From: Streptosporangiaceae bacterium NEAU-GS5 | GTDB lineage: Bacteria > Actinomycetota > Actinomycetes > Streptosporangiales > Streptosporangiaceae | Assembly (NCBI GenBank): GCA_017592665.1 | Contig: JAGFNW010000005.1 | Span: 186,001-250,000 of the forward strand | Direction of reading: 5' to 3' | DNA length: 64,000 nt | Shown: piece by piece, positions 6,459 to 63,053 of the stretch | How positions within the stretch are numbered: position 1 is the first letter of the stretch | How the letters are laid out: every line of letters starts with the position of its first letter | The notes under the pieces: generated by a model | Told to the model about the DNA's origin: nothing | Databases searched by the model: none | What the model saw: the letters and a program-made list of their open reading frames with translations, nothing else | Made by a program: the position numbers and the translations under genes

Positions 6459-7796
6459 ATGGAGCAGCCTGGCGGCATGATCCTGGAGTTCGCCGACAAG
6501 GTGTGGCGGGGGGCGGTCAAGGCAGACGAGGTGCCACTCGCCGATTTGCGTGCGGCCGGACTTCAGGAGGTTGCCGAAGGCGTGGCCATGTGGCCCGCCT
6601 TCGGCAACGTTTATGTGATCCGCGGCGAGAACGGGCTGGCCCTGTTCGACACGGGCAACGCCATCGACGCCCCCGCGATGTACGCGGCCGTGCGCGCCTG
6701 GTCCGACGAGCCGATCCGCTACGCCGTCTTCTCGCACGGCCACCTCGACCACGTGATGGGCATGGACCCCTTCGACGAGGAGGAGGGCCCACGGCCCATC
6801 GTGGTGGCCCACGAGGGGGTGCTCACGCGGTTCGCCCGCTACGCCAGGACCGCCGGCTACAACAGCGTGATCAACCAGCGGCAGTTCGGCTACAGCCGGA
6901 TCAGCTGGCCGAGCACCTGCCGGATGCCCGACCTGACGTACCAGGACAAGCTCCGGCTGTCCCTCGGCGACATGTCGATCGAGCTGCACCACGCGCGCGG
7001 CGAGACCGACGACGCCACCTGGGCCTTCCTGCCCGAGCAGAACGTGCTGCTCACGGGCGACATGTTCGTCTGGGTCGTGCCGACCGCCGGAAGTCCGCAG
7101 AAGGTGCAGCGCTATCCGGACGAGTGGGCCGTCGCCCTCCGGACCATGGCCTCGCTCGACGCCGACCTCCTGCTCCCCGGCCACGGGCTGCCCATCAAGG
7201 GCAGCGCCCGGGTGCGGCGCGCCCTCGTGGACACCGCCGACTATCTCGACAGCCTGGTCGAGCAGACCCTCGACCTGATGAACGCCGGGGCCCGGCTCGA
7301 TGAGATCCTGCACTCGGTCCAGCCGCCGGCCGAGCTCGCCAACCGGCTCTATCTGCAGCCCTACTACGACGAGCCCGAGTTCATCGTGCGCAATATCTGG
7401 CGCCTGCACGGCGGCTGGTACGACGGGAATCCGGCGCACCTGAAGCCGGCGCCCGACGCCGTTTTCGCCCGCGCCGTGGCGGGCCTGGCCGCCGGCGCGG
7501 CCACGATCGCCGGTCGCGCCGTGGTCGCCGCCGCCGAGGGCGACCTTCGGCTGGCCTGCCAGCTGGCCGAACTGGCCGCGCAGGCCGAGCCGGAAGACCA
7601 CAAGGTGCACGAGATCAGAGCGCGTGTCTACGCGCTGCGCGTGCAGCAGGAGCCGGGCGCCATCGCGCGGGGCGTCTACGCCTGGGCCGCGGCGGAGTCA
7701 CGCAGCAGGGTGACCGGGCAAGACCTGCTCGACGTCTACCACGAGGTCGCCGGCGGGCGCATGTGGTGGATTCCTTCCTACACTCGCCGGTCCTGA
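6459..7796 (+). CDS. MBL-fold metallohydrolase, alkyl-sulfatase (BDS1/SdsA)-like
   Basis: A 445-residue protein with a metallo-beta-lactamase domain. The zinc motif H-G-H-L-D-H is near residue 93, followed by a G-E-T-D-D-A segment and L-L-T-G-D-M metal-ligand region near 190-205, as in alkyl sulfatases. The C-terminal third (about 275-420) is helical and matches the alkyl-sulfatase dimerisation domain (A-N-R-L-Y-L-Q, then an alanine-rich A-E-G-D-L-R-L-A-C-Q-L-A-E-L-A). It lacks the extra SCP2-like tail of SdsA1, so it may act on another ester. Start is ATG 6459; ATG 6477 is an in-frame alternative. It begins 29 bp after the LAL regulator and is probably controlled by it. Confidence 0.82.
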   Translation: MEQPGGMILEFADKVWRGAVKADEVPLADLRAAGLQEVAEGVAMWPAFGNVYVIRGENGLALFDTGNAIDAPAMYAAVRAWSDEPIRYAVFSHGHLDHVMGMDPFDEEEGPRPIVVAHEGVLTRFARYARTAGYNSVINQRQFGYSRISWPSTCRMPDLTYQDKLRLSLGDMSIELHHARGETDDATWAFLPEQNVLLTGDMFVWVVPTAGSPQKVQRYPDEWAVALRTMASLDADLLLPGHGLPIKGSARVRRALVDTADYLDSLVEQTLDLMNAGARLDEILHSVQPPAELANRLYLQPYYDEPEFIVRNIWRLHGGWYDGNPAHLKPAPDAVFARAVAGLAAGAATIAGRAVVAAAEGDLRLACQLAELAAQAEPEDHKVHEIRARVYALRVQQEPGAIARGVYAWAAAESRSRVTGQDLLDVYHEVAGGRMWWIPSYTRRS

Positions 7797-52895: not shown

Positions 52896-54344
52896 CTAGA
52901 AGCCGGCGGTGATGGCGGTGAAGGCCCAGTCGGACTGGGCGATGCCGGAGCAGGCGGACTGGACGCCGCCGCCCGCGCAGCCGCGGTCGCGGTTGACCGA
53001 CCAGAAGGCCAGCCGGCCGAGGCCGTGCGACTTGGCGTAGTCGCGGATCTGCGTCCAGATCGCGGTGGTGGTGGTCTCCTGCTGGTCGGACAGGCCGTTC
53101 ATGCCGGAGATTCCCATGTGGGCGTAGGCCTGCGCGTCCGTCCAGCCCCAGGCCGACTTGAGCGCGTTCTTCAGGCCTTCGGAGGCGTTGACCGTGTTCT
53201 GGTACATGTTGGCGCCGCCGCCGAAGTCGAACGGCATGATCGTGTAGTTGTCGATGGGCACGTTGAGCGCCTTCGACTGGTTGATCAGGCGGGTGCCCCA
53301 GAACGTCGGGCCGGTGGTGCTGGTGCCGAAGGTGACCACGACCTTGGTGCTCGCGTTGTTCGCCTTGACGATCTTCAGGGCGCCGAGGATGCGGTCCTGG
53401 ACGGCCTCGCTCTCGAACTCGTCGACGTTCTCGATGTCGAAGTCGACGGCGGCCGGGTGATAGGCGTTGATGACCTGCTGCACGGCGCCGGCGTACGCCG
53501 AGGACGAGGAGCAGTTCGGGCCGAGCTTGTTGCCCTGCCAGCCGCCGAAGGAGATCTGGACGTTGCCGCCCGCGCCCTTGATGGCGCTGATGGCGCTGGC
53601 GTCGGCGCCGCCGGTCAGCGGCCTGTTGCCGTCCCAGGCCGGGGTGCAGCCGCCGCCCGAGAGCATGAACGCCATGGTGAACGCCTTGATCCCGGTGGCG
53701 CTCATGACGGCCGTGGGCGAGGGCGGGCTGCCCCAGCCTTCATACAGATAGGGCGCGCCCGGGAGCTTGCCGCCGCTCTGGGGGCAGCCGGTGGTCGAGC
53801 CGATGACCTCGGTGCTGGCCGGGGACTGCCCGATCGAGTTGTACGCGCGGATCGTGTAGGTGTGCGTGGAGCAGGTGCCGAGCCCCGAGATCGTCGTGCT
53901 GAGGCCGCTGATCTGGGCGCGCTGGGTGGCGCCTTCGAAGACGCGGTAGCCGGTCACGGTGCCGGAGGAGGCGTTCCAGGCGAGCGAGATCGACGTGTCC
54001 GTGGAGCCCGTGACGCGGGCGTTGCCGGGCGTGCCGGGGACGCCGGCCGTCGGCGTGGGCGTCGGAGTCGGGTTGCCGCCGGTGACCAGCCGCCACAGCG
54101 CCGGCACGGCCGAGGGGGTCCAGTCGGGCTGCGAGGTGTGCGCCTGGATGCACTCGTACTCGGCGCCGTTGTAGCTCACGCGCTGGCCCACGGAGTACGG
54201 GGTCCAGGGAGCCCAGGCCGGTGAGGCCAGCATGACCACCGCGCGCGGGGCGGCCGACGCCGAGGCGACGTTACTGGCGGCCGCGAATCCGGTGACCACC
54301 AGTGCGAGGCCGGCGACGACGGCGGCCATCCTTCGTAATCTCAT
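52896..54344 (-). CDS. Secreted GH18 chitinase with CBM5/12 and fibronectin-III domains
   Basis: A 482-residue secreted enzyme. Signal peptide to about residue 32; CBM5/12-type chitin-binding domain at about 42-86 (P-A-W-A-P-W-T-P-Y, Y-E-C-I-Q-A-H-T-S-Q); short P-T linker; fibronectin III near 104-186; GH18 catalytic region 197-480. The catalytic strand is V-D-F-D-I-E with E305 as the likely acid; the first Asp of the usual D-x-x-D-x-D-x-E is Ala. Cys-rich loops (C-A-G-G-G near 460) are like those in its operon mates. It is the last gene of the four-gene operon, 26 bp after the preceding stop. Confidence 0.9.
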   Translation of the reverse strand: MRLRRMAAVVAGLALVVTGFAAASNVASASAAPRAVVMLASPAWAPWTPYSVGQRVSYNGAEYECIQAHTSQPDWTPSAVPALWRLVTGGNPTPTPTPTAGVPGTPGNARVTGSTDTSISLAWNASSGTVTGYRVFEGATQRAQISGLSTTISGLGTCSTHTYTIRAYNSIGQSPASTEVIGSTTGCPQSGGKLPGAPYLYEGWGSPPSPTAVMSATGIKAFTMAFMLSGGGCTPAWDGNRPLTGGADASAISAIKGAGGNVQISFGGWQGNKLGPNCSSSSAYAGAVQQVINAYHPAAVDFDIENVDEFESEAVQDRILGALKIVKANNASTKVVVTFGTSTTGPTFWGTRLINQSKALNVPIDNYTIMPFDFGGGANMYQNTVNASEGLKNALKSAWGWTDAQAYAHMGISGMNGLSDQQETTTTAIWTQIRDYAKSHGLGRLAFWSVNRDRGCAGGGVQSACSGIAQSDWAFTAITAGF

Positions 54345-54370: not shown

Positions 54371-55972
54371 TCAGAACGAGTTGAGATAGGCGCGGTGGCT
54401 GTGGGAGAACTCGAAGCCGTTGAACTTGTCCCAGTTGATCGACCAGGTCATGAGGCCCTTCAGGCCGGAGAAGACGCCATGTGGGTGGTAGGGACCGCAG
54501 TTGGCGCCCTTGGCCAGGCAGTCGAAGGCCTTCTGGGTCTCGGCGACCGTGGTGAAGCCGTTTCCGGCGAACGAGGCGGCCGGCAGACCGATCGCGACCT
54601 GATCCGGCCGCAGCGCCGGGAAGGCGGCGCCGCCGGCCACGGGGAAGCCGGTGAGCAGCATGTCGGTCATGGCCACGTGGAAGTCGTGGGTGCCCATGGT
54701 GTGGTACTGGTTGTCCAGGCCCATGATCGGCCCGGAGTTGTAGTCCTGGACGTGCAGCAGGGTCAGGTCGCCGCGCATCGCGTAGATCACCGGCAGGTAC
54801 GCCCCTGATCTGGCGTCGGCTGTGCCGTTCGGGCCGGGGCCGTAGAACTGGTAGCCGAGCTGGACGAAGAACGTCTCAGGGGCCATGGTCAGCACGAAAC
54901 GGCTGCCGTAGCGGGTCTTGAGCGTCTTCAGCGCGGAGATGAGGTTGACCACGACCGGGGTGGTCGGGCTGCGGAAGTCGCGGTCGTTCTGGTTGAGCGA
55001 CAGCGAGTGGCCTTCGAAGTCGATGTCGAGGCCGTCGAGGCCGTATCGGTCGATGATCGCGCTGACCGACGAGACGAAGGTGTCGCGCGCGGCCGTGGTG
55101 GTCAGCTGGACCTGGCCGTTCTGGCCGCCGATGGAGATCAGCACCTTCTTGCCGGCGGCCTGCTTGGCGCGGATCGCGGCGGTGAAGTCGGCCTCGCTCT
55201 CGACGGTCGGGCACTCGGCGGCCGGGCACCGGTTGAAGCGAATGTCTCCCGAGGTGACCGAGGTCGGCTCGCCGAAGGCGAGATCGATGTAGTCCCAGTC
55301 GTTCGGGACATCCGCCATCCGGATATATCCGGATCCGTTGGCGAATGAGGCGTGCAGGTAGCCGACCAGCACCCGCTTGCCCGGCGGCTGCGGCGAGCCG
55401 GTCGGGGTCGGCGTGGGCGTCGGGGTGGGGGTCGGGGTGGGCGTGGGGCTTGCCGTGGGGGTCGGCGAGGGCGGGGCTCCGCCGGGGCCGTCGAGGACGA
55501 TGTCGTCGGCGTTGTAGGTGCCCTGGCCGTACCAGCCGTTGACATAGATCGTCGCGCTGGTCTGGCTCGCGCTCGTGGTGAACGACGTGCTCAGCTGGGT
55601 CCAGGCGGCGCCGGGCGAGGCCCAGGTCTCCGCGCCGCCGACCGAGCCGAGGAAGATGAAGTTCCCGCGGACCCAGGCCGACAGCGCGTACGTCGTGGAC
55701 GCCTTGACGCTGACCGTCTGCTGGCAGCGCGCGAAGTCGTTGCCGGCCGGGGTGGCCGCGAGCGCCTTCGTCCCGCCGTGGACCGGGCTGGACACCGCCG
55801 CGGCCCCCGAAGTGGCCGAGCAGGTCCAGCCGGTCAGCCCCGACTCGAAGCCGGGGTTCACCGCGATGTTGGCCGCGGACGCGGGGGTGGCCTGGAGGAT
55901 CGCCACCCCCGCGAGCACGACCGCCGCGGTGGCGCTCGTGATGATGGTGCGTGATCTGCCGCGCGGCTTCAT
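54371..55972 (-). CDS. Secreted GH18 chitinase with N-terminal carbohydrate-binding module
   Basis: A 533-residue protein: signal peptide (cleavage near A-S-A-A, residue 33), a CBM of the A-N-I-A-V-N-P-G-F-E-S-G type (about 34-165, ending N-A-D-D-I-V-L-D-G-P-G-G), a Pro-Thr linker (about 168-197), and a GH18 barrel with the intact D-G-L-D-I-D-F-E motif (D313, D316, D318, E320). V-L-I-S-I-G-G-Q at 277-284 is the SxGG strand. This is the most canonical catalytic domain in the cluster, resembling ChiD-like chitinases. ATG 55972 overlaps the upstream stop (ATGA). Confidence 0.93.
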   Translation of the reverse strand: MKPRGRSRTIITSATAAVVLAGVAILQATPASAANIAVNPGFESGLTGWTCSATSGAAAVSSPVHGGTKALAATPAGNDFARCQQTVSVKASTTYALSAWVRGNFIFLGSVGGAETWASPGAAWTQLSTSFTTSASQTSATIYVNGWYGQGTYNADDIVLDGPGGAPPSPTPTASPTPTPTPTPTPTPTPTGSPQPPGKRVLVGYLHASFANGSGYIRMADVPNDWDYIDLAFGEPTSVTSGDIRFNRCPAAECPTVESEADFTAAIRAKQAAGKKVLISIGGQNGQVQLTTTAARDTFVSSVSAIIDRYGLDGLDIDFEGHSLSLNQNDRDFRSPTTPVVVNLISALKTLKTRYGSRFVLTMAPETFFVQLGYQFYGPGPNGTADARSGAYLPVIYAMRGDLTLLHVQDYNSGPIMGLDNQYHTMGTHDFHVAMTDMLLTGFPVAGGAAFPALRPDQVAIGLPAASFAGNGFTTVAETQKAFDCLAKGANCGPYHPHGVFSGLKGLMTWSINWDKFNGFEFSHSHRAYLNSF

Positions 55973-57426
55973 CCGGTGAACGCCTTGAAGATGTTGGTGA
56001 ACTCGTACGTGGACTGGGCGATGCCGCTGCACGTCGGCGAGAGCGTGCCGTTCGGGCAGCCGCCGTTGTCGCGGCCGAGCGACCAGAAGCCGATCCGCCC
56101 GACGTGGTTGGCCTGCGCGTACGCCAGCAGCTGGCGGGCGTGGGCCTGCGTGGTGATCTGACCCGTGTCGTTCTTGCCGATCATCGGGGTGAGGCCGAGC
56201 AGCCGCTTGATCTGCGCGTCGGTCTTCGACGGCCAGATCGACTTCATCTGGCCGATGGTCGAGTTGGCCGCGGCGACCATGGCGTTGCCCCAGTCGCCGG
56301 AGAAGCCGAAGTCCATCAGCATCGGGTTGACGTTGACGTTCAGGCCCTTGGCCGCGGCGTCCTGGAGGATCTGCACGGAGAACGGGTCCATGCCGAAGTC
56401 GGGGGCCTGGACGCGCATGGTGTAGCTGATCTGGGTGCCGCGCTCGGTCTGCAGCTGCTTGAGGGCGCTGTTGACCTTGTTGATGTCGATGGACGCCTCG
56501 ACGTCCACGTCCAGGAAGTTGGTGCCGACCGTGTCGAGGACCTTCTTGTAGGCGGCGAGCAGGGTCGCGGTGGTGCCGCAGCTGTGCTCGAGGTAGGGGC
56601 CGACCGCGCCACCGGTGGCCACGATCACCTGGCCGCCCCTGGACTGCAGGCCGCGGATGTCGTTGATGATCCGCGAGTCGGCCAGCGGGATCGTGCCGCC
56701 CCATGCCGGGTTGCAGCCGGTGCTGTCGCCGAGCGCGAAGGCCAGCGTGTAGTACTTCTGCCCGGTCGCGTTGAAGGCGCTGACCAGCGACGGCGTGGTC
56801 ATCGTGATGTCGATGTAGGGGGCGACGGTGATGCTGCTCGGGTTGGGCGGGGTGCCGGTCGGGCTGGGACTCGGGGTGGGGGTCGGTGTCGGCGTGGGTG
56901 TGGGGGTGGGCGTCGGAGACGGCGTCGTCGTTCCGCCCGGCCCGTCGAGGACGATGTCGTCGGCGTTGTACGTGCCCTGGCCGTACCAGCCGTTGACGTA
57001 GATGATCACGCTGGTGGTCGACGACCCGGTGGTGAACGTGACGGTGGCCTGGGCGTAGGCAGCGCCCGGCGCGACCCAGGTCTGGGTGTTCACGCCGGTG
57101 CCGGTGGCGCCGATGAAGATGAAGTTGCCGCGCAGCCAGCCGGACAGCGTGTACGCCGTGGACGGCTTGACGCTGACCGTCTGCTGGCAGCGCGCGAAGT
57201 CGCTGTCCGACGGATTGGCCTGGAGCGCCTTGGTCCCGCCGTGGACCGGGCTGGACACCGCGGCCGCGCCGGAGCCGGCCGCGCACGACCAGCCGGTCAG
57301 GCCCGACTCGAAGCCCGGGTTGGTCGCGATGTTCGCGGCCGAGGCCGACCCGGTGAAGAAGACGGCGGAGAAGACCAGCGCGAGCGGCGCCACCGCCGAG
57401 GCGATCACTTTGTTTTTCATCTTCAT
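55969..57426 (-). CDS. Secreted GH18 protein with N-terminal carbohydrate-binding module
   Basis: A 485-residue protein: signal peptide to about residue 31, a CBM (about 31-165) very similar to that of the next gene, a P-T-P-T linker, then a GH18 domain of the short ChiA-like group with V-I-V-A-T-G-G near 267-273 and the catalytic strand L-D-V-D-V-E (D306, D308, E310). ATG 57426 is favoured because GGGGTGA lies 7 nt upstream; GTG 57435 would overlap the previous stop. The end overlaps the next start by 4 nt. Substrate preference (chitin, or other GlcNAc polymers) is inferred. Confidence 0.9.
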   Translation of the reverse strand: MKMKNKVIASAVAPLALVFSAVFFTGSASAANIATNPGFESGLTGWSCAAGSGAAAVSSPVHGGTKALQANPSDSDFARCQQTVSVKPSTAYTLSGWLRGNFIFIGATGTGVNTQTWVAPGAAYAQATVTFTTGSSTTSVIIYVNGWYGQGTYNADDIVLDGPGGTTTPSPTPTPTPTPTPTPTPSPSPTGTPPNPSSITVAPYIDITMTTPSLVSAFNATGQKYYTLAFALGDSTGCNPAWGGTIPLADSRIINDIRGLQSRGGQVIVATGGAVGPYLEHSCGTTATLLAAYKKVLDTVGTNFLDVDVEASIDINKVNSALKQLQTERGTQISYTMRVQAPDFGMDPFSVQILQDAAAKGLNVNVNPMLMDFGFSGDWGNAMVAAANSTIGQMKSIWPSKTDAQIKRLLGLTPMIGKNDTGQITTQAHARQLLAYAQANHVGRIGFWSLGRDNGGCPNGTLSPTCSGIAQSTYEFTNIFKAFTG

Positions 57427-57431
57427 GCTGG

Positions 57432-58664
57432 TCACCCCGTGTATCCGGCGAAGATCCTGGAGAACTCGTACGGCGTCTGCGCGATGTTGGTGCACATGTA
57501 GAGGGCGCCGTTGCAGGCGTTGCGGTCGCGGGTCATCTCCCAGAAGGCCAGCAGCCCGAGGTGCTTGCCCTTGGCGAAGGTGACCAGCTGCCGGGCGTCG
57601 GCCTGGTTGTAGACGCGGCCGTCGTCGTTCTGGCCGAGCATCGGGGTGACCCCGACCATCCGCCAGACCTGGGCGTCGGACAGGCTCGGATACAGCGACT
57701 TGAGCTGGCTGAACGTGCTGTTGGCGGCTTGCACGGCGGCGTCGCCGTAGTCCACGGACTGGTAGTAGTCCATGGCCATGACGTTGACCGCGTCGAGCTT
57801 GACGCCGGCGTCCCGGGCCGAGCGGACCACGTTGAGGCCGTCGGAGGTCAGGCCGGTGGGCAGCACGGGCAGGGTGAGCGAGATCTTCAGGTTGGAGTGG
57901 GCCGACTGCAGCCGGGCCAGCGCCTGGGAGCGACGGGCCACCGACGCGGGCTCGGCCGTCGCCGATCCTTCGATGTCGAGGTCGATGTAGTTCAGGCCGT
58001 AGGCGTTGACCACGGCGTTGTACTCGTTGTACAGCGCGGTCACGTCCGTGCAGGCCTGGGCGAGCTCGATGCCGGTCGCGCCGCCGAAGGAGATCTTCAC
58101 GTCTCCGCCGCCGGCCCGGATCGCGTCGATCTGGTCCTTGGCCCACTGCTGGCGCGGGTCGTAGGCGTTGAACCACATGGCCTTGCAGGCGGACGCGGTG
58201 ATGAAGGCGAGCGTGAAGTTCTTCAGGCCGGACGCCGAGGCCATGGCCGTCAGGCTCGGCGTCGGCCAGGAGCCCATGTCCACGTACGGAGCGGTCCGGA
58301 TGTTGCCCGGGTTGGGCGGCGGGGTGGAGCCGGTCGGCGTCGGCGTCGGAGTCGGCGAGGGGGTGCCGCTCGAGCCGAGGCGCTTCCACAGGGCGGGCAC
58401 GTTCGCGGGCTCCCAGCCTGGCTGGGATGTGTGCGCCTGGATGCATTCGTAGTCGACGCCGTTGTAGGTCACCCGCGCGCCGATGGCGTACGAGGTCCAG
58501 GGCGCCCAGGCCGGATAGGCCAGCATGACCATCGAACTCGGCGCCGACCGGGCGGAAACCGCTTGCGCCGTGGCGGCCGTCAGTCCGGTCGCCACCAGCG
58601 CCAGCACGGTGACCATAACGACGGTCGGGCGAGTGATCGGAATGGACAGAAACCTGCTTCGCAT
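57432..58664 (-). CDS. Secreted GH18 chitinase with CBM5/12 domain
   Basis: A 410-residue enzyme, first in the operon: signal peptide to about residue 37, CBM5/12 at 48-93 (P-A-W-A-P-W-T-S-Y, Y-E-C-I-Q-A-H-T-S-Q), a P-T-P linker, then GH18 (122-410) with V-K-I-S-F-G-G-A near 189-196 and catalytic I-D-L-D-I-E (D228, D230, E232). W-E-M-T-R-D-R near 381-387 is the conserved C-terminal tryptophan strand. ATG 58664 is preceded by a weak GAGGA. Its CBM closely matches that of the fourth gene, as if the operon grew by mirrored duplication. Confidence 0.92.
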   Translation of the reverse strand: MRSRFLSIPITRPTVVMVTVLALVATGLTAATAQAVSARSAPSSMVMLAYPAWAPWTSYAIGARVTYNGVDYECIQAHTSQPGWEPANVPALWKRLGSSGTPSPTPTPTPTGSTPPPNPGNIRTAPYVDMGSWPTPSLTAMASASGLKNFTLAFITASACKAMWFNAYDPRQQWAKDQIDAIRAGGGDVKISFGGATGIELAQACTDVTALYNEYNAVVNAYGLNYIDLDIEGSATAEPASVARRSQALARLQSAHSNLKISLTLPVLPTGLTSDGLNVVRSARDAGVKLDAVNVMAMDYYQSVDYGDAAVQAANSTFSQLKSLYPSLSDAQVWRMVGVTPMLGQNDDGRVYNQADARQLVTFAKGKHLGLLAFWEMTRDRNACNGALYMCTNIAQTPYEFSRIFAGYTG

Positions 58665-58690
58665 GTGTCACGTCCTCTGCGGGGGGTGCG

Positions 58691-58740
58691 CACGGCTGGC
58701 GCCTCCTGGAGGCGGCCTGGATGAACGGCGCCAGCCGTAC
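58691..58740 (-). promoter_or_regulatory. Leader hairpin upstream of the chitinase operon
   Basis: On the minus strand GTACGGCTGGCGCC and GGCGCCAGCCGTG form a 12-bp perfect stem with a 23-nt loop, 27 nt upstream of the first chitinase ATG. It differs by one base per arm from the operon terminator hairpin at 52839-52882. It could terminate the degenerate GH18 gene, stabilise the chitinase mRNA or act as an attenuator. Confidence 0.6.
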
Positions 58741-58842
58741 GGGTGAAGAGGCGCGTCTGGTGACGGGACGCGGAGTGGTTACTGGATGTGATCGATTTGC
58801 TCTTGGAGTTACTGCGAGTTGATATCGAAGTTGATATTTCTT

Positions 58843-58859
58843 TTAGGAAAGTTTCCTAA
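58843..58859. promoter_or_regulatory. Perfect palindrome TTAGGAAAGTTTCCTAA, candidate ROK/NagC-type operator
   Basis: An odd 17-bp palindrome with a central G, extendable to 58840-58862 with one mismatched pair. It lies about 180 bp upstream of the chitinase operon start, in the AT-richest part of the window. AGGAAA-N-TTTCCT dyads occur upstream of sugar and glycan genes in actinobacteria, and ROK-type repressors are candidates; no ROK gene is in this window. The binding protein is inferred only. Confidence 0.65.
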
Positions 58860-58903
58860 GAGTTGTGGGGATCGTAAACCTCTGCCGGGACCTCCGACAA
58901 GGC

Positions 58904-59896
58904 CTAAATAACCGGGACTTCGATGTTGGTGTAGTCGAGTTCGGCGACGGCGGAAGCGACGTCCCAGCCGTCGTGCGCGGCGGGCAGGTGGGCCGTCAGG
59001 AGATAGTGGCGGCCCGCCGCGGCGCCCAGCGCGTCCAGTTGGGCCCGGAACTCGCGAAGCAGCAGGACGAAGCCGGCCCGATCCTCGGGACGGGCGTGGT
59101 TGCCCGGGTGGGCCGCCGACCCTGGCCACCGCCAGTCGACGTCGATGCCGTCGAACACCCCGGCGGCGCTGCCCGGTCCACCGCGTCCGGCGACCGCGGG
59201 CAGGTCGCCCCGGATGTACATGTCGACGCACGACTTGACCAGCCGCTGCCTGGTTTCGGCCGATCGCGCCGCGTCGGAGAAGAAGGTCGAGTACGCCCAG
59301 CCGCCGATCGTCACCAGGATCCGCAGCTTGGGGTAGCGCGCCTTCAGCTTGAGCAGCTGGTTGAAGTTGCCGGCCAACGCGGCGTCCGGTGGGTCGGCGA
59401 TGGCGTCGATCGACTCGGCCGCGCTGAATCCGCGCTGATAGTCGGCCCACGCGTCCCCTGCGCCGTCACCTTGCGAGGGATCGCGCGCGTCGGCGGCCGG
59501 CGGCCGGGTCACGCCGTTGAGACAGGTCAAAGTGGCCGGGTCGAGGTTCTCACCGGTGTAGACGAGGTCGGTCAGGTCGCCCGCGTCCGGATACACCGCA
59601 CGGACCGTGTTGGTCGCGCCGAAGGCCCCGCGCTGAGCGACATACGCGACCCGCAACGCCGGCCGTGCCGGGGTGGGCGTAGGCGTAGGCGGCACGGGTT
59701 CTGGCGGCACCGTGACCGTGACCGTGACCACAGGAGTGGCCTCAGCGGTCACCGGCGTCGTGACCAGCATCGTCCGCTCTTCGGCCACGCTGGCTCCGCT
59801 GGGGATGTACCAGGTGGCGAAGATCGTGCCCATGACCGTGCACATGACCGTGGCCACGACGAGGGCGGCGAAGGCGGCGCGTGTGTACGCACCCAT
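58904..59896 (-). pseudogene. Degenerate, truncated GH18 protein (catalytic Glu replaced by Arg)
   Basis: A 330-residue frame with an N-terminal membrane anchor (A-A-F-A-A-L-V-V-A-T-V-M-C-T), a Thr/Val/Pro linker, and a GH18 domain from about residue 80: I-L-V-T-I-G-G-W at 193-200, then D-G-I-D-V-D-W-R at 249-256. In active enzymes this is D-G-x-D-x-D-W/Y-E; here position 256 is Arg (CGG at 59131-59129), so catalysis should be lost. The protein stops after the beta-6 region (L-D-Y-T-N-I-E-V-P-V-I) and lacks the final strands. It is either decaying or kept as an anchored non-catalytic binder. The frame is otherwise intact. Confidence 0.7.
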
Positions 59897-60023
59897 GATG
59901 GGACTCCGGAGCGTGTTGGGACGGGTGTGACGACGGACGCTAGTCGCCCAAATACCCCCTTAACAAGGGTCCTTTCCTTAACCGGGAGTTATGCCCGCCT
60001 CATGTGGCTTCGCCGCGGACCCG

Positions 60024-63000
60024 TCAGTCGGTGATCAGGCGTTCGAGCTCGTCGCGGGGCAGGCCCAGCCCGAAGCTCTCGGCGGCCGTCCGCAGGGCCG
60101 CCGCCCGCTCGCCGTCGGCCTCCACATCGGCCGACCACATCAGGATCTGGCCGAGGATGGGCAGGTCGGGCGCGTGGCCGAGGGCGTGGTAGGCCTCCTT
60201 GAGCCGGGCCCGGCCCTCATCGACCCGGCCCACCTTGATCAGGGTCTTCGCGTAGGCACTCAGCGCCGAGGCGGTGAGCTGCGGGAACATCGTCTGACCC
60301 GCCAGTTCGGCGGCCACGCGCTCGTGGATCTCAAGGGAGGCCGCGAGGTCACCGCGGATCCGGGCCACGTCCCCCTCCACGATCATGAGCAGGACCATCG
60401 AGTGCGGCTGGATCTCGCCCGGCTCGGCCCCCGCCCTGGCCTTCTCCAGGTCGGCCATCGCCCCGTCGATGTCGCCGGCCTCGGCGCGGAGGGTCGCCAG
60501 CCGGGCCAGCATGGAGATCGACTCGTCCGAGCTGATCCATCCCGAGGTCAGCATGCTCACCTCGTCGGCCACGTCGAGGGCCGGCTCGCCCCGGCTGGCG
60601 CGGAGCGTGGCCAGGTTGATCAGGGCCTCGCTGAGCCCCCAGCGGTCGCCGATGGCCCGGAAGCCGGCCGCCGCCGCCTCGAGGTCGGCCACGTCGCCGC
60701 GCGATCCGCGCAGCATGAGCGCCGAACTGGCGAGCCAGCGGTCATCGGAGGCGGCGTACTCCTCGATCAGCTCGGTGGCCATCGCGTCCTTGCCGGCCAT
60801 GGCGGCCATCACCACCCGGGTCACCAGCAGCATCGGATGCACGGGACCCTCGGCGACGGCCCGCTGGATCAGCTCTTCCATGATCTGGTGGATCTCCTGG
60901 ACCGCGCCCGCCTGCGACACGATCGACGCCAGCTCGCTCACCCCCCGGGCGAACTGGCACGCCACATACGCCCTGACCAGCCCCTCCGGCGGCTCGTCTC
61001 CGGCGAGCGCGAGCGTCTGCCGGATCCACACGGCCGACTCGGCCCGATAGCCGCGCAACCACCAGAACCAGCTGAGCGTGCCGCACAGCCGGACCGCGAG
61101 CGCCACGTCACGGCGGTCGATGGCCCAGCGCAGCGCCGCGTGCAGGTTGTCCTGCTCGGTGATCAGCCGCGCGATCCATTCCAGCTGGTCGGCCGTGCGC
61201 AGCCGCGGCTCGGCGGTTTCCGCGAGATTCAGGAAACGCACGGCATGGCGGCGCCGGAACGCCTCGGCCAGCTCCCCCGCCTCCTCCAAGGCGAACGCCC
61301 GGATGGTCTCCAGCATCCGATAACGGCCGTCGTCGGCCACTTCGACAAGCGACTTGTCGACAAGCGACGGCAGCGTCTTGAGCACGTCGGTCTCGGGAGT
61401 GCCGCACACGGCCTCGACGTCGTCGAGCATGGCCGACCCCGCGAAGACGGCGAAGCGTTCGGCCAGGTCGCGCTCGTCCGGGGTGAGCAGATCCCAGCTC
61501 CACTCGACCACGGCGCGCAGGGTCTGATGCCGCGGCAGGGCCGTACGGCTGCCTCCGGTGAGCAACCGGAACCGGTCGTCCAGGCGGCTCGCGAGCTGAG
61601 CGGGCGTCAGGGCCCGCAGCCGTGCCGCGGCCAGCTCGATCGCCAGCGGCATCCCGTCGAGGTGGCGGCAGATGGCGACCACGTCCGCGAGGTTGGCGTG
61701 ATCCAGCACGAACCCCGGTTTGACCGCACGCGCCCGCTCGACCAGCAGCCGCACGGCCGAATGGGCCGCGGCGTCGGCGATGTCTCCCGGGTCGTCCAGC
61801 GGGGCCCCGGCCGGAGGAAGACCCAGCGGCGGGATCGGGAAAAGCACCTCGCCCGGCACGCCGAGCGGCTCACGGCTGGTGGCCAGCACCCGCACGCCCG
61901 GGCAGTCGTGCAGCAGACGCTCCACGACCCGCGCCGCCGCGCCCACGACGTGCTCGCAGTTGTCGAGGACCACCAGCACGCGCCGCTCGCCCAGCCCCAT
62001 GCCCAGCTGCGCCAACGGGTCGTCCGGCGCCGGGCGAAGATCTCCGGGGGTGGCCAGGCCCGAAGTGAGTCCGAGCGCGTTGACCAGGGTCGGCGCCACG
62101 TCGACGGGGTCGGCCACCGGGGCCAGCTCGGCCAGCCGGAGCTCGGACTCGCCGGAGCGGAGCGCGGTCTCCACCGCCAGCCGGGTCTTCCCGGCCCCGC
62201 CCGGGCCTACGACGGTGACGAGCCGGTGCTCGCCCAGCAGTCCGGCCAGCCCGCCGAGCTCCTGCTCCCGCCCGACGAAACTGGTCAGCGGCGCCTTGAC
62301 GGCCGACCCCCGGCGCCCCTCCTTGGAATGCCGGGTGGGCGTTCCGCCGTGCGGCGTCTGTCCGCGCAGCGTCTCTCCGCGCAGCACGGCGAGGTGAGCG
62401 GCCCGGAGCTCCGGGCCGGGGTCGATGCCCAGCTGCTCGGCGAGCGCCGCACGCGTACGCTCGAACAGGGCCAGCGCGTCCGCCTGCCGGCCGCCCGCCG
62501 CCAGCCCGCGCATGGCCAGCGCGCAGAGCCTCTCGCGCAGCGGATGCTCGGCCGCGTCGGCCGACAGATCAACGGCCAGGCCGCGCGACAGCCGGGCCTC
62601 GGCCCGCGTCTCCACCGCGTCGAGCCGCTGCTCGTCGAGCCGGGCCGCCACATTGGCCAGATGCGGCGTCGACCGCAGATCGGCCAGCGCCGGACCGCGC
62701 CACAGCCCCAGCGCCTCATCCAGCGGCCCCGTCGCCACGAGACCTGCGAAACGGCTCGCGTCCACGTCATCCGGCGGCACATCCAGCGCGTACGCCCCGG
62801 GCAGCGTCAAGACGGGCGATCCGGCCGGGGCAAGCGCCGCGCGCAACCGGCTGACCAGGGTCTGCAGCGCGTTGGCGGCGTTGCCCGGCGGCTCCTCGCC
62901 CCAGAGGGCGTCGACGAGCCGGTCGACGGCGACCGGCTTGCCGGGCTCCAGCGCCAGCATGGCCAGCAACGCCCGGACGCGCTGACCGCCCACGACGACG

Positions 63001-63053
63001 GGCGCGCCCGTGTCGTCGGTGACCTCCAACGCCCCCAGGATGCCCACGCGCAC
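60024..63053 (-). CDS. AfsR/SARP-family transcriptional regulator (DNA-binding, BTAD, NB-ARC-like, TPR)
   Basis: A 1009-residue regulator. The N-terminal OmpR-type winged helix spans 1-90 (L-G-A-L-E-V-T-D-D-T-G near the start), BTAD about 95-240, an NTPase with Walker A V-G-P-G-G-A-G-K-T (K289) and Walker B-like L-V-V-L-D-N-C-E-H near 354-362, and a helical TPR-like C-terminal half. Starts at GTG 63053. SARP proteins of this size activate antibiotic or other specialised gene sets. No biosynthetic cluster is present here, so the target is unknown, possibly beyond the right edge. It is followed on the minus strand by the degenerate GH18 gene after 127 bp. Confidence 0.92.
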   Translation of the reverse strand: MRVGILGALEVTDDTGAPVVVGGQRVRALLAMLALEPGKPVAVDRLVDALWGEEPPGNAANALQTLVSRLRAALAPAGSPVLTLPGAYALDVPPDDVDASRFAGLVATGPLDEALGLWRGPALADLRSTPHLANVAARLDEQRLDAVETRAEARLSRGLAVDLSADAAEHPLRERLCALAMRGLAAGGRQADALALFERTRAALAEQLGIDPGPELRAAHLAVLRGETLRGQTPHGGTPTRHSKEGRRGSAVKAPLTSFVGREQELGGLAGLLGEHRLVTVVGPGGAGKTRLAVETALRSGESELRLAELAPVADPVDVAPTLVNALGLTSGLATPGDLRPAPDDPLAQLGMGLGERRVLVVLDNCEHVVGAAARVVERLLHDCPGVRVLATSREPLGVPGEVLFPIPPLGLPPAGAPLDDPGDIADAAAHSAVRLLVERARAVKPGFVLDHANLADVVAICRHLDGMPLAIELAAARLRALTPAQLASRLDDRFRLLTGGSRTALPRHQTLRAVVEWSWDLLTPDERDLAERFAVFAGSAMLDDVEAVCGTPETDVLKTLPSLVDKSLVEVADDGRYRMLETIRAFALEEAGELAEAFRRRHAVRFLNLAETAEPRLRTADQLEWIARLITEQDNLHAALRWAIDRRDVALAVRLCGTLSWFWWLRGYRAESAVWIRQTLALAGDEPPEGLVRAYVACQFARGVSELASIVSQAGAVQEIHQIMEELIQRAVAEGPVHPMLLVTRVVMAAMAGKDAMATELIEEYAASDDRWLASSALMLRGSRGDVADLEAAAAGFRAIGDRWGLSEALINLATLRASRGEPALDVADEVSMLTSGWISSDESISMLARLATLRAEAGDIDGAMADLEKARAGAEPGEIQPHSMVLLMIVEGDVARIRGDLAASLEIHERVAAELAGQTMFPQLTASALSAYAKTLIKVGRVDEGRARLKEAYHALGHAPDLPILGQILMWSADVEADGERAAALRTAAESFGLGLPRDELERLITD

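Follow-up and report, generated by a model that had tools for sequence, protein, structure and literature searches.

A truncated, six-strand GH18 protein conserved in Streptosporangiaceae, with the catalytic Glu replaced by Arg in one lineage

The GH18 mechanism needs a proton-donor Glu, without which hydrolysis is very unlikely, and in solved GH18 enzymes active-site residues are also borne by the QGYD and beta-7/8 parts of the barrel. Animals and plants have well-known inactive GH18 proteins, whereas bacterial ones are less familiar; YKL-40 and Ym1 are examples of the eukaryotic chi-lectins and chitinase-like proteins. To our knowledge these eukaryotic proteins retain the whole eight-strand barrel, and we know of no inactive GH18 case that does not keep it whole. 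Among bacteria, BT1284 of Bacteroidales and the GH18-like protein of B. faecium are described as catalytically impaired, and binding of high-mannose N-glycans by BT1284 is given in the same account as not measurable (PMC11180146). The initial annotation of the locus studied here held that such bacterial cases are rarely described, a fair statement if not an absolute one given the inactive Bacteroidales GH18-like proteins of that report.

The window (the whole stretch of DNA analysed, 64,000 nucleotides from Streptosporangiaceae bacterium NEAU-GS5) contains a gene for a GH18 protein, called TGH18 here:

58904..59896, minus strand: TGH18, truncated GH18 protein of 330 amino acids (open reading frame, Pfam match and AlphaFold2 model)
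Layout of TGH18: hydrophobic helix at residues 3–27, PT-rich linker, GH18 strands beta-1 to beta-6 at residues 83–326, R256

The frame is open from its ATG over all 330 amino acids with no stop or frameshift, carries the motif DGIDVDWRWPG and ends right after beta-6; the initial annotation, which described an uninterrupted frame, a DGIDVDWR motif and a protein ending at that strand, was correct in each respect. A significant match to PF00704 (Glyco_hydro_18; E = 1.9e-27, 97.2 bits against a cut-off of 29.6) places TGH18 in the GH18 sequence family while covering profile positions 18–178 of 317 only. The AlphaFold2 model (built from 22 rows; mean pLDDT 75.9, with 61 to 98 in 10-residue blocks from residue 81) shows the helix at 3–27, then a PT-rich linker modelled at low confidence, and a barrel of six strands whose final one (322–326) lies 4 residues before the protein end; a complete eight-strand barrel with the beta-6 Tyr-Asp motif, as in active GH18 enzymes, is therefore not present. 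Foldseek returned the chitinase 1kfw as the best solved match both for this model (TM-score 0.68 by query length, 43% identity) and for that of the Microbispora corallina homologue (0.66, 52%). Within the motif, residues D249, G250, D252, D254, W255, W257, P258 and G259 were invariant across the 22 rows.

Homologues of TGH18 were found at E <= 1e-45 in 194 of the 297 genomes of a family sample and fell into two sets according to the number of residues that follow the aligned region: 0–19 in 30 loci (17 distinct proteins) versus at least 130 past the TGH18 end in 84 loci, the latter being full-length homologues of the 1kfw type from Nonomuraea, Streptomyces and others. Loci added later showed the same split. 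The 17 short proteins come from five genera: the window's genus (1; one genome in the collection), the genus that includes Microbispora (13, present in 13 of its 15 genomes; assigned through proteins identical to those of named loci), Acrocarpospora catenulata (1) and two further genera (1 each); Microbispora and Acrocarpospora belong to the Streptosporangiaceae. An order-level search of 345 genomes at E <= 1e-82 matched 22 of them, with five full-length and 17 short forms, a count to be taken as at least 17 because lower-scoring short forms would escape this threshold. Among the best 30 loci of a class-wide search in 394 genomes, six held short forms, and these came solely from Microbispora and the window.

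All 17 short frames are cut just after beta-6 and are without the QGYD motif. The sequence of close full-length homologues at this strand is, for example, LDFANVQGYDFHG (QGYDFHG), and it continues beyond; short relatives read VDFVNVQ or similar, followed by 14–19 more residues, a tail that is absent from the window copy, which ends LDYTNIEVPVI and then stops. The C-terminal tail GRHAVREGAVLR and its variants are common to the Microbispora-genus short proteins (e.g. at about 6754–6798 of locus L042), and that of M. corallina is modelled, at low confidence, as a strand at residues 352–357. When full-length homologues were used as tblastn queries, no beta-7/8-like sequence was detected at 50–64 kb of the window (E <= 1e-3). 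Six full-length C-terminal halves likewise gave no match at any of 16 short-form loci (the same part of the window and 15 others, covering 16 of the 17 short proteins, with L015 left out), and two control loci were detected; a C-terminal half hidden by a frameshift or a split gene was thus not found at the loci tested. In a tree with eight full-length outgroup sequences (IQ-TREE) the short forms made one clade with 100% ultrafast bootstrap, within which the position of the window copy was poorly resolved (51). Judged from this tree, the truncation is ancestral in the short-form clade and old.

The Arg has a different distribution. Residue 256 is encoded by CGG in the window copy and by GAG (14/16) or GAA (2/16) in the other short forms; since at least two base changes separate these codons, a single miscalled base is ruled out. 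Glu is kept in all 16 other short forms and DxxDxDWE in 84/84 full-length homologues, so the proposal that the Glu-to-Arg change is a trait of the family did not survive, and it is the loss of the last barrel quarter, not that of Glu, that defines the short-form family, the Arg being private to the window copy. Only the window copy, then, lacks the proton-donor Glu of the DxxDxDxE motif and shows the loss of a catalytic residue within a GH18 fold that marks chi-lectins; the other 16 do not. The objection that relatives might have both an intact Glu and full-length genes holds for the Glu, but the nearest relatives are not full-length. This pattern suggests that Arg 256 was a later, lineage-private step and that Glu was dispensable in the window copy. 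At positions invariant in the other 16 short forms the window copy has changed at 12 of 118; the same count gave 10/116 for Acrocarpospora, in which Glu is kept, and 6/112 and 4/110 for the two further genera. Changes of the window copy at conserved positions include Q326E, F115G, E256R and the loss of the tail, and its unusual residues near strand ends are F115G, R256, H303 and E326. We also considered remodelling of the active site, and this was rejected: residues unique to the window copy occur at 3 of 22 strand-end positions versus 29 of 209 elsewhere (Fisher p = 1.0).

A one-ratio codon model over 241 codons of the 17 short forms gave an omega of 0.056. With the outgroup included omega was 0.048 on the window branch versus 0.060 elsewhere, and omega = 1 was rejected for the window branch (2dlnL = 76.4, p = 2e-18); these values come from a custom codon-model script on a tree with weakly supported inner branches, and the window branch is long, with dS near saturation and a whole-branch omega that is blind to its most recent part. 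As the window lineage is one genome, the estimate is compatible with recent relaxation. The window-branch omega obtained without the outgroup (0.0057, branch length 14.9) was discarded as a saturation artefact. The dN/dS comparison called for by the initial annotation thus came out as non-neutral, with omega about 0.05, and its view of the gene as maintained rather than debris is upheld by the 17 short proteins in five genera, purifying selection and a conserved upstream region. Neutral evolution, a broken frame or a lost promoter, the marks of a pseudogene, were not found for TGH18.

The upstream region, defined by its conservation, is as follows:

59937..60004, minus strand: composite promoter-like region, CATGAG-N5-CATAA-N7-TTAAG, TTGT and a -10-like box TAGCGT

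A conserved block of this kind is present, with small variations, 5' of all 17 short genes; its three boxes stand roughly in 11-bp phase, and the -10-like box reads TAGCGT in the window and TACGCT in relatives. The core (59977–60004) has no mismatch to the family pattern, and no second core site with 0 or 1 mismatch occurs in the window's own 10-Mb genome. Allowing up to 3 mismatches, the composite pattern occurred once per genome in 16 of 19 genomes, always upstream of the short gene; it was found in 16 of the 17 carriers, the exception (G034) having a last spacing one base shorter, and in neither of the two Microbispora-genus genomes in which a search for the gene itself gave nothing at E <= 1e-60, and a reversed-pattern control gave 0 matches. 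Self-similarity of the block was 0.46 at lag 11, 0.37 at lag 22 and 0.36 at lag 14 over 16 sequences (a set without M. corallina, whose block shows in the alignment); for the window alone lag 22 was highest (0.44), with lags 11 and 19 both at 0.38. Operators of SARP regulators are described as having an 11-bp repeat period (PMC5930380, PMC10936776). A generic sigma-70 scan of 58650–60050 returned no promoter-like site, so that conservation is what supports the predicted promoter; the same interval held one terminator-like site, where chance alone would give 0.7, and no RNA element was found in 58600–60200 at E up to 0.1. TGH18 appears to have its own predicted promoter region, apart from that of the chitinases.

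The N-terminus had been taken for a membrane anchor. In TGH18 the hydrophobic helix (3–27), which only a few residues precede and which leaves no room for a cytoplasmic domain, is followed by SVA at residues 36–38, and an A/V/S-x-A site follows the hydrophobic segment in 17/17 short-form proteins, against a chance rate of about 30% (276 of 935 equally long stretches of Ala-rich linkers); the segment may instead be a cleaved signal peptide. The idea that this N-terminus is unusually conserved was not supported by a comparison, over 6 pairs from 4 loci, with the signal peptides of the ChiA proteins encoded there: values for TGH18 versus ChiA were 0.46, 0.37 and 0.49 versus 0.46, 0.31 and 0.40 for the window pairs, and 0.77, 0.69 and 0.74 versus 0.80, 0.89 and 0.83 for the other pairs.

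The genes around TGH18 are a regulator directly upstream on the same strand and four chitinase-like genes downstream, with a candidate operator between TGH18 and the first of these:

60024..63053, minus strand: SARP/BTAD regulator of 1009 amino acids (Trans_reg_C and BTAD, with weaker AAA/STAND NTPase matches)
58843..58859, no strand assigned: CsnR-type (ROK repressor) operator, palindrome TTAGGAAAGTTTCCTAA, between TGH18 and ChiA
57432..58664, minus strand: ChiA, CBM5/12 + GH18-like, 410 amino acids, YIDLDIEG
55969..57426, minus strand: ChiB, chitinase-like secreted protein, 485 amino acids, FLDVDVEA, GH18 by motif only
54371..55972, minus strand: ChiC, GH18 protein, 533 amino acids, DGLDIDFEGH
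52896..54344, minus strand: ChiD, CBM5/12 + Fn3 + chitinase-like region (AVDFDIEN), 482 amino acids

ChiD has no PF00704 match at E <= 0.001; ChiB, with FLDVDVEASIDINKV, has an unusual form of the GH18 motif and was found at none of 11 named short-form loci at E <= 1e-20. At six of these 11 loci (10 from Microbispora and 1 from Acrocarpospora) ChiA, ChiC and ChiD follow in order downstream; of the remaining five, one has ChiD and a ChiC fragment, one has ChiC 4–5 kb off and three have none of them in the flanks examined. The gene thus lies beside the operon in the window, as had been stated, but this does not extend to the three loci (3/11) without these chitinases in their flanks. Those three, L042, L043 and L044 of Microbispora, keep the short gene and have a distant BTAD protein (35–38%) a few kb downstream on the opposite strand. 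Relatives of these chitinases also flank a full-length homologue at three loci of Nonomuraea; these shared neighbours suggest that TGH18 originated from a Nonomuraea-like full-length gene, and we infer direct descent.

A close BTAD ortholog (54–59%) is adjacent to the short gene in the window and within about 2–4 kb in seven other genomes. With such an ortholog near the gene in only 8/17 carriers, the BTAD protein is weakened as a cognate regulator and may or may not regulate TGH18. The palindrome is expected 0 times by chance and has three exact sites in the window's own genome; it follows 11 of the 17 short genes at a distance of up to 1.2 kb, and a twelfth with one mismatch. The same 17 letters are given for a csnN106 chitosanase operator construct, in an account of a palindrome bound by CsnR (PMC3048496), and the palindrome core lies within the S. 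lividans CsnR site as described (PMC4856308). As one review puts it, CsnR boxes are absent from chitin genes except in Streptosporangium roseum (PMC6097792), an exception that the window resembles in having a perfect CsnR-type palindrome before a chitinase cluster.

With a probability of roughly one half, we regard TGH18 as a kept, exported, non-hydrolytic six-strand GH18 derivative, one that likely binds chitin or chito-oligosaccharides on the cell surface or close to it. Its ancestor would be a secreted, full-length GH18 chitinase such as Nonomuraea still has, TGH18 having lost beta-7, beta-8 and everything beyond while having an export segment, linker and promoter region of its own; the six-strand exported domain would then have been retained by selection in a Streptosporangiaceae lineage, holding its ligand through conserved strand-end residues as a putative accessory to the chitin-degrading system, and Glu would have changed to Arg last, in the window lineage. 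The view that the protein is kept is supported by relatives cut at the same place, with the same kind of predicted promoter, and by a low omega. The short forms are most likely non-hydrolases because they have neither QGYD at beta-6 nor the barrel wall of beta-8, and hydrolysis by the window copy is very unlikely given the loss of the proton donor. Given the conserved Asp, Trp and Gly of the motif and the chitinase genes nearby, the function is most likely to be binding of chitin or its oligomers, with both the ligand and any sensing role putative. Against this reading, 16/17 keep Glu, which would be unexpected had the domain long been purely structural; the window copy has lost the tail and changed at 12 of 118 invariant positions, three of the 11 loci have the gene but none of these chitinases in the flanks examined, and the sigma-70 scan gave no promoter-like site. 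A bolder proposal, which we put forward as tentative, is that these proteins are an undescribed Streptosporangiaceae envelope family in which a six-strand barrel serves as a stable, open-sided chitin receptor with a dedicated promoter, Glu having been replaced in the window species.

We consider it unlikely that the window gene is debris, a decaying copy that has lost Glu and tail and seems intact because it is GC-rich and its decay recent. Its genus is represented by one genome, E256R, F115G, Q326E and the loss of the tail strike conserved positions, and its GC3 (0.87) is slightly under that of its neighbours ChiA (0.95), ChiD (0.97) and BTAD (0.92). However, the Glu-bearing short form at L024 has a GC3 of 0.86; the changes at invariant sites, although more than in the two further genera, are close in number to those of Acrocarpospora with its Glu; and the rejection of omega = 1 (omega 0.048), the exact match of the promoter core to the family pattern and a frame with neither stop nor frameshift all speak against decay. 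A live enzyme family, in which the Glu-bearing six-strand domain cuts or transfers chito-oligosaccharides, perhaps as a dimer, and the window copy alone is dead, would account for Glu and DxxDxDxE in 16/17 and for the very low omega; we find it improbable, as all 17 stop after beta-6 with no QGYD, the beta-7/8 half is absent at the 16 loci tested and the missing parts hold active-site residues in solved GH18 enzymes.

Still less credence is given to a split protein, with the missing barrel wall completed by a partner (another copy of itself or a full-length GH18 protein). The open edge past beta-6 could be sticky, and the M. corallina tail is modelled with a strand, albeit at low confidence; yet no beta-7/8 fragment was found at any of the 16 loci tested, and the tail is lost in the window copy. 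Least probable of all, in our estimate, is that TGH18 is a dedicated sensor which signals chitin to the adjacent SARP/BTAD protein, this acting in turn on the 11-bp repeats that precede the TGH18 gene. The regulator is a same-strand neighbour in the window, the repeats are phased like the SARP operators cited above, and the three loci with the distant BTAD protein are without a close ortholog. But close orthologs accompany 8/17 carriers whereas the repeats are present in all 17, and TGH18 has no cytoplasmic domain; a cleaved signal peptide would, moreover, leave no link to the membrane.

The preferred reading, an exported six-strand domain that holds chitin without cutting it, bears on more than this locus: a barrel cut after strand six and kept across genera is a natural test of the minimal TIM barrel needed for folding and polysaccharide binding, and also of whether retired hydrolases serve as surface receptors in bacteria, with relatives that have and lack Glu as a ready comparison. 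No six-strand GH18 family was described among the matches listed from the open-access literature. The closest solved relative is ChiB of Arthrobacter TAD20 (1kfw), with which TGH18 shares its sequence family (phmmer E = 2.9e-60, query residues 82–325), modelled fold, DGxDxDW motif and GGW motif; unlike homologues of that type, in which DxxDxDWE is universal (84/84) and the close ones have QGYDFHG, TGH18 carries Arg and ends at beta-6. With BT1284 and the B. faecium protein it has in common that all are bacterial GH18 relatives, but the B. faecium protein is presented as a typical TIM barrel with an N-terminal DUF1735 beta-sandwich, and the Bacteroidales GH18-like proteins are relatives of ENGases whereas TGH18 is a relative of chitinases (PMC11180146). 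Eukaryotic chi-lectins differ in that their sugar binding is demonstrated, that of TGH18 being presumptive; what the window copy shares with them, and with the plant TCLL protein as reported (PMC3662789), is descent from GH18 with loss of the catalytic residue.
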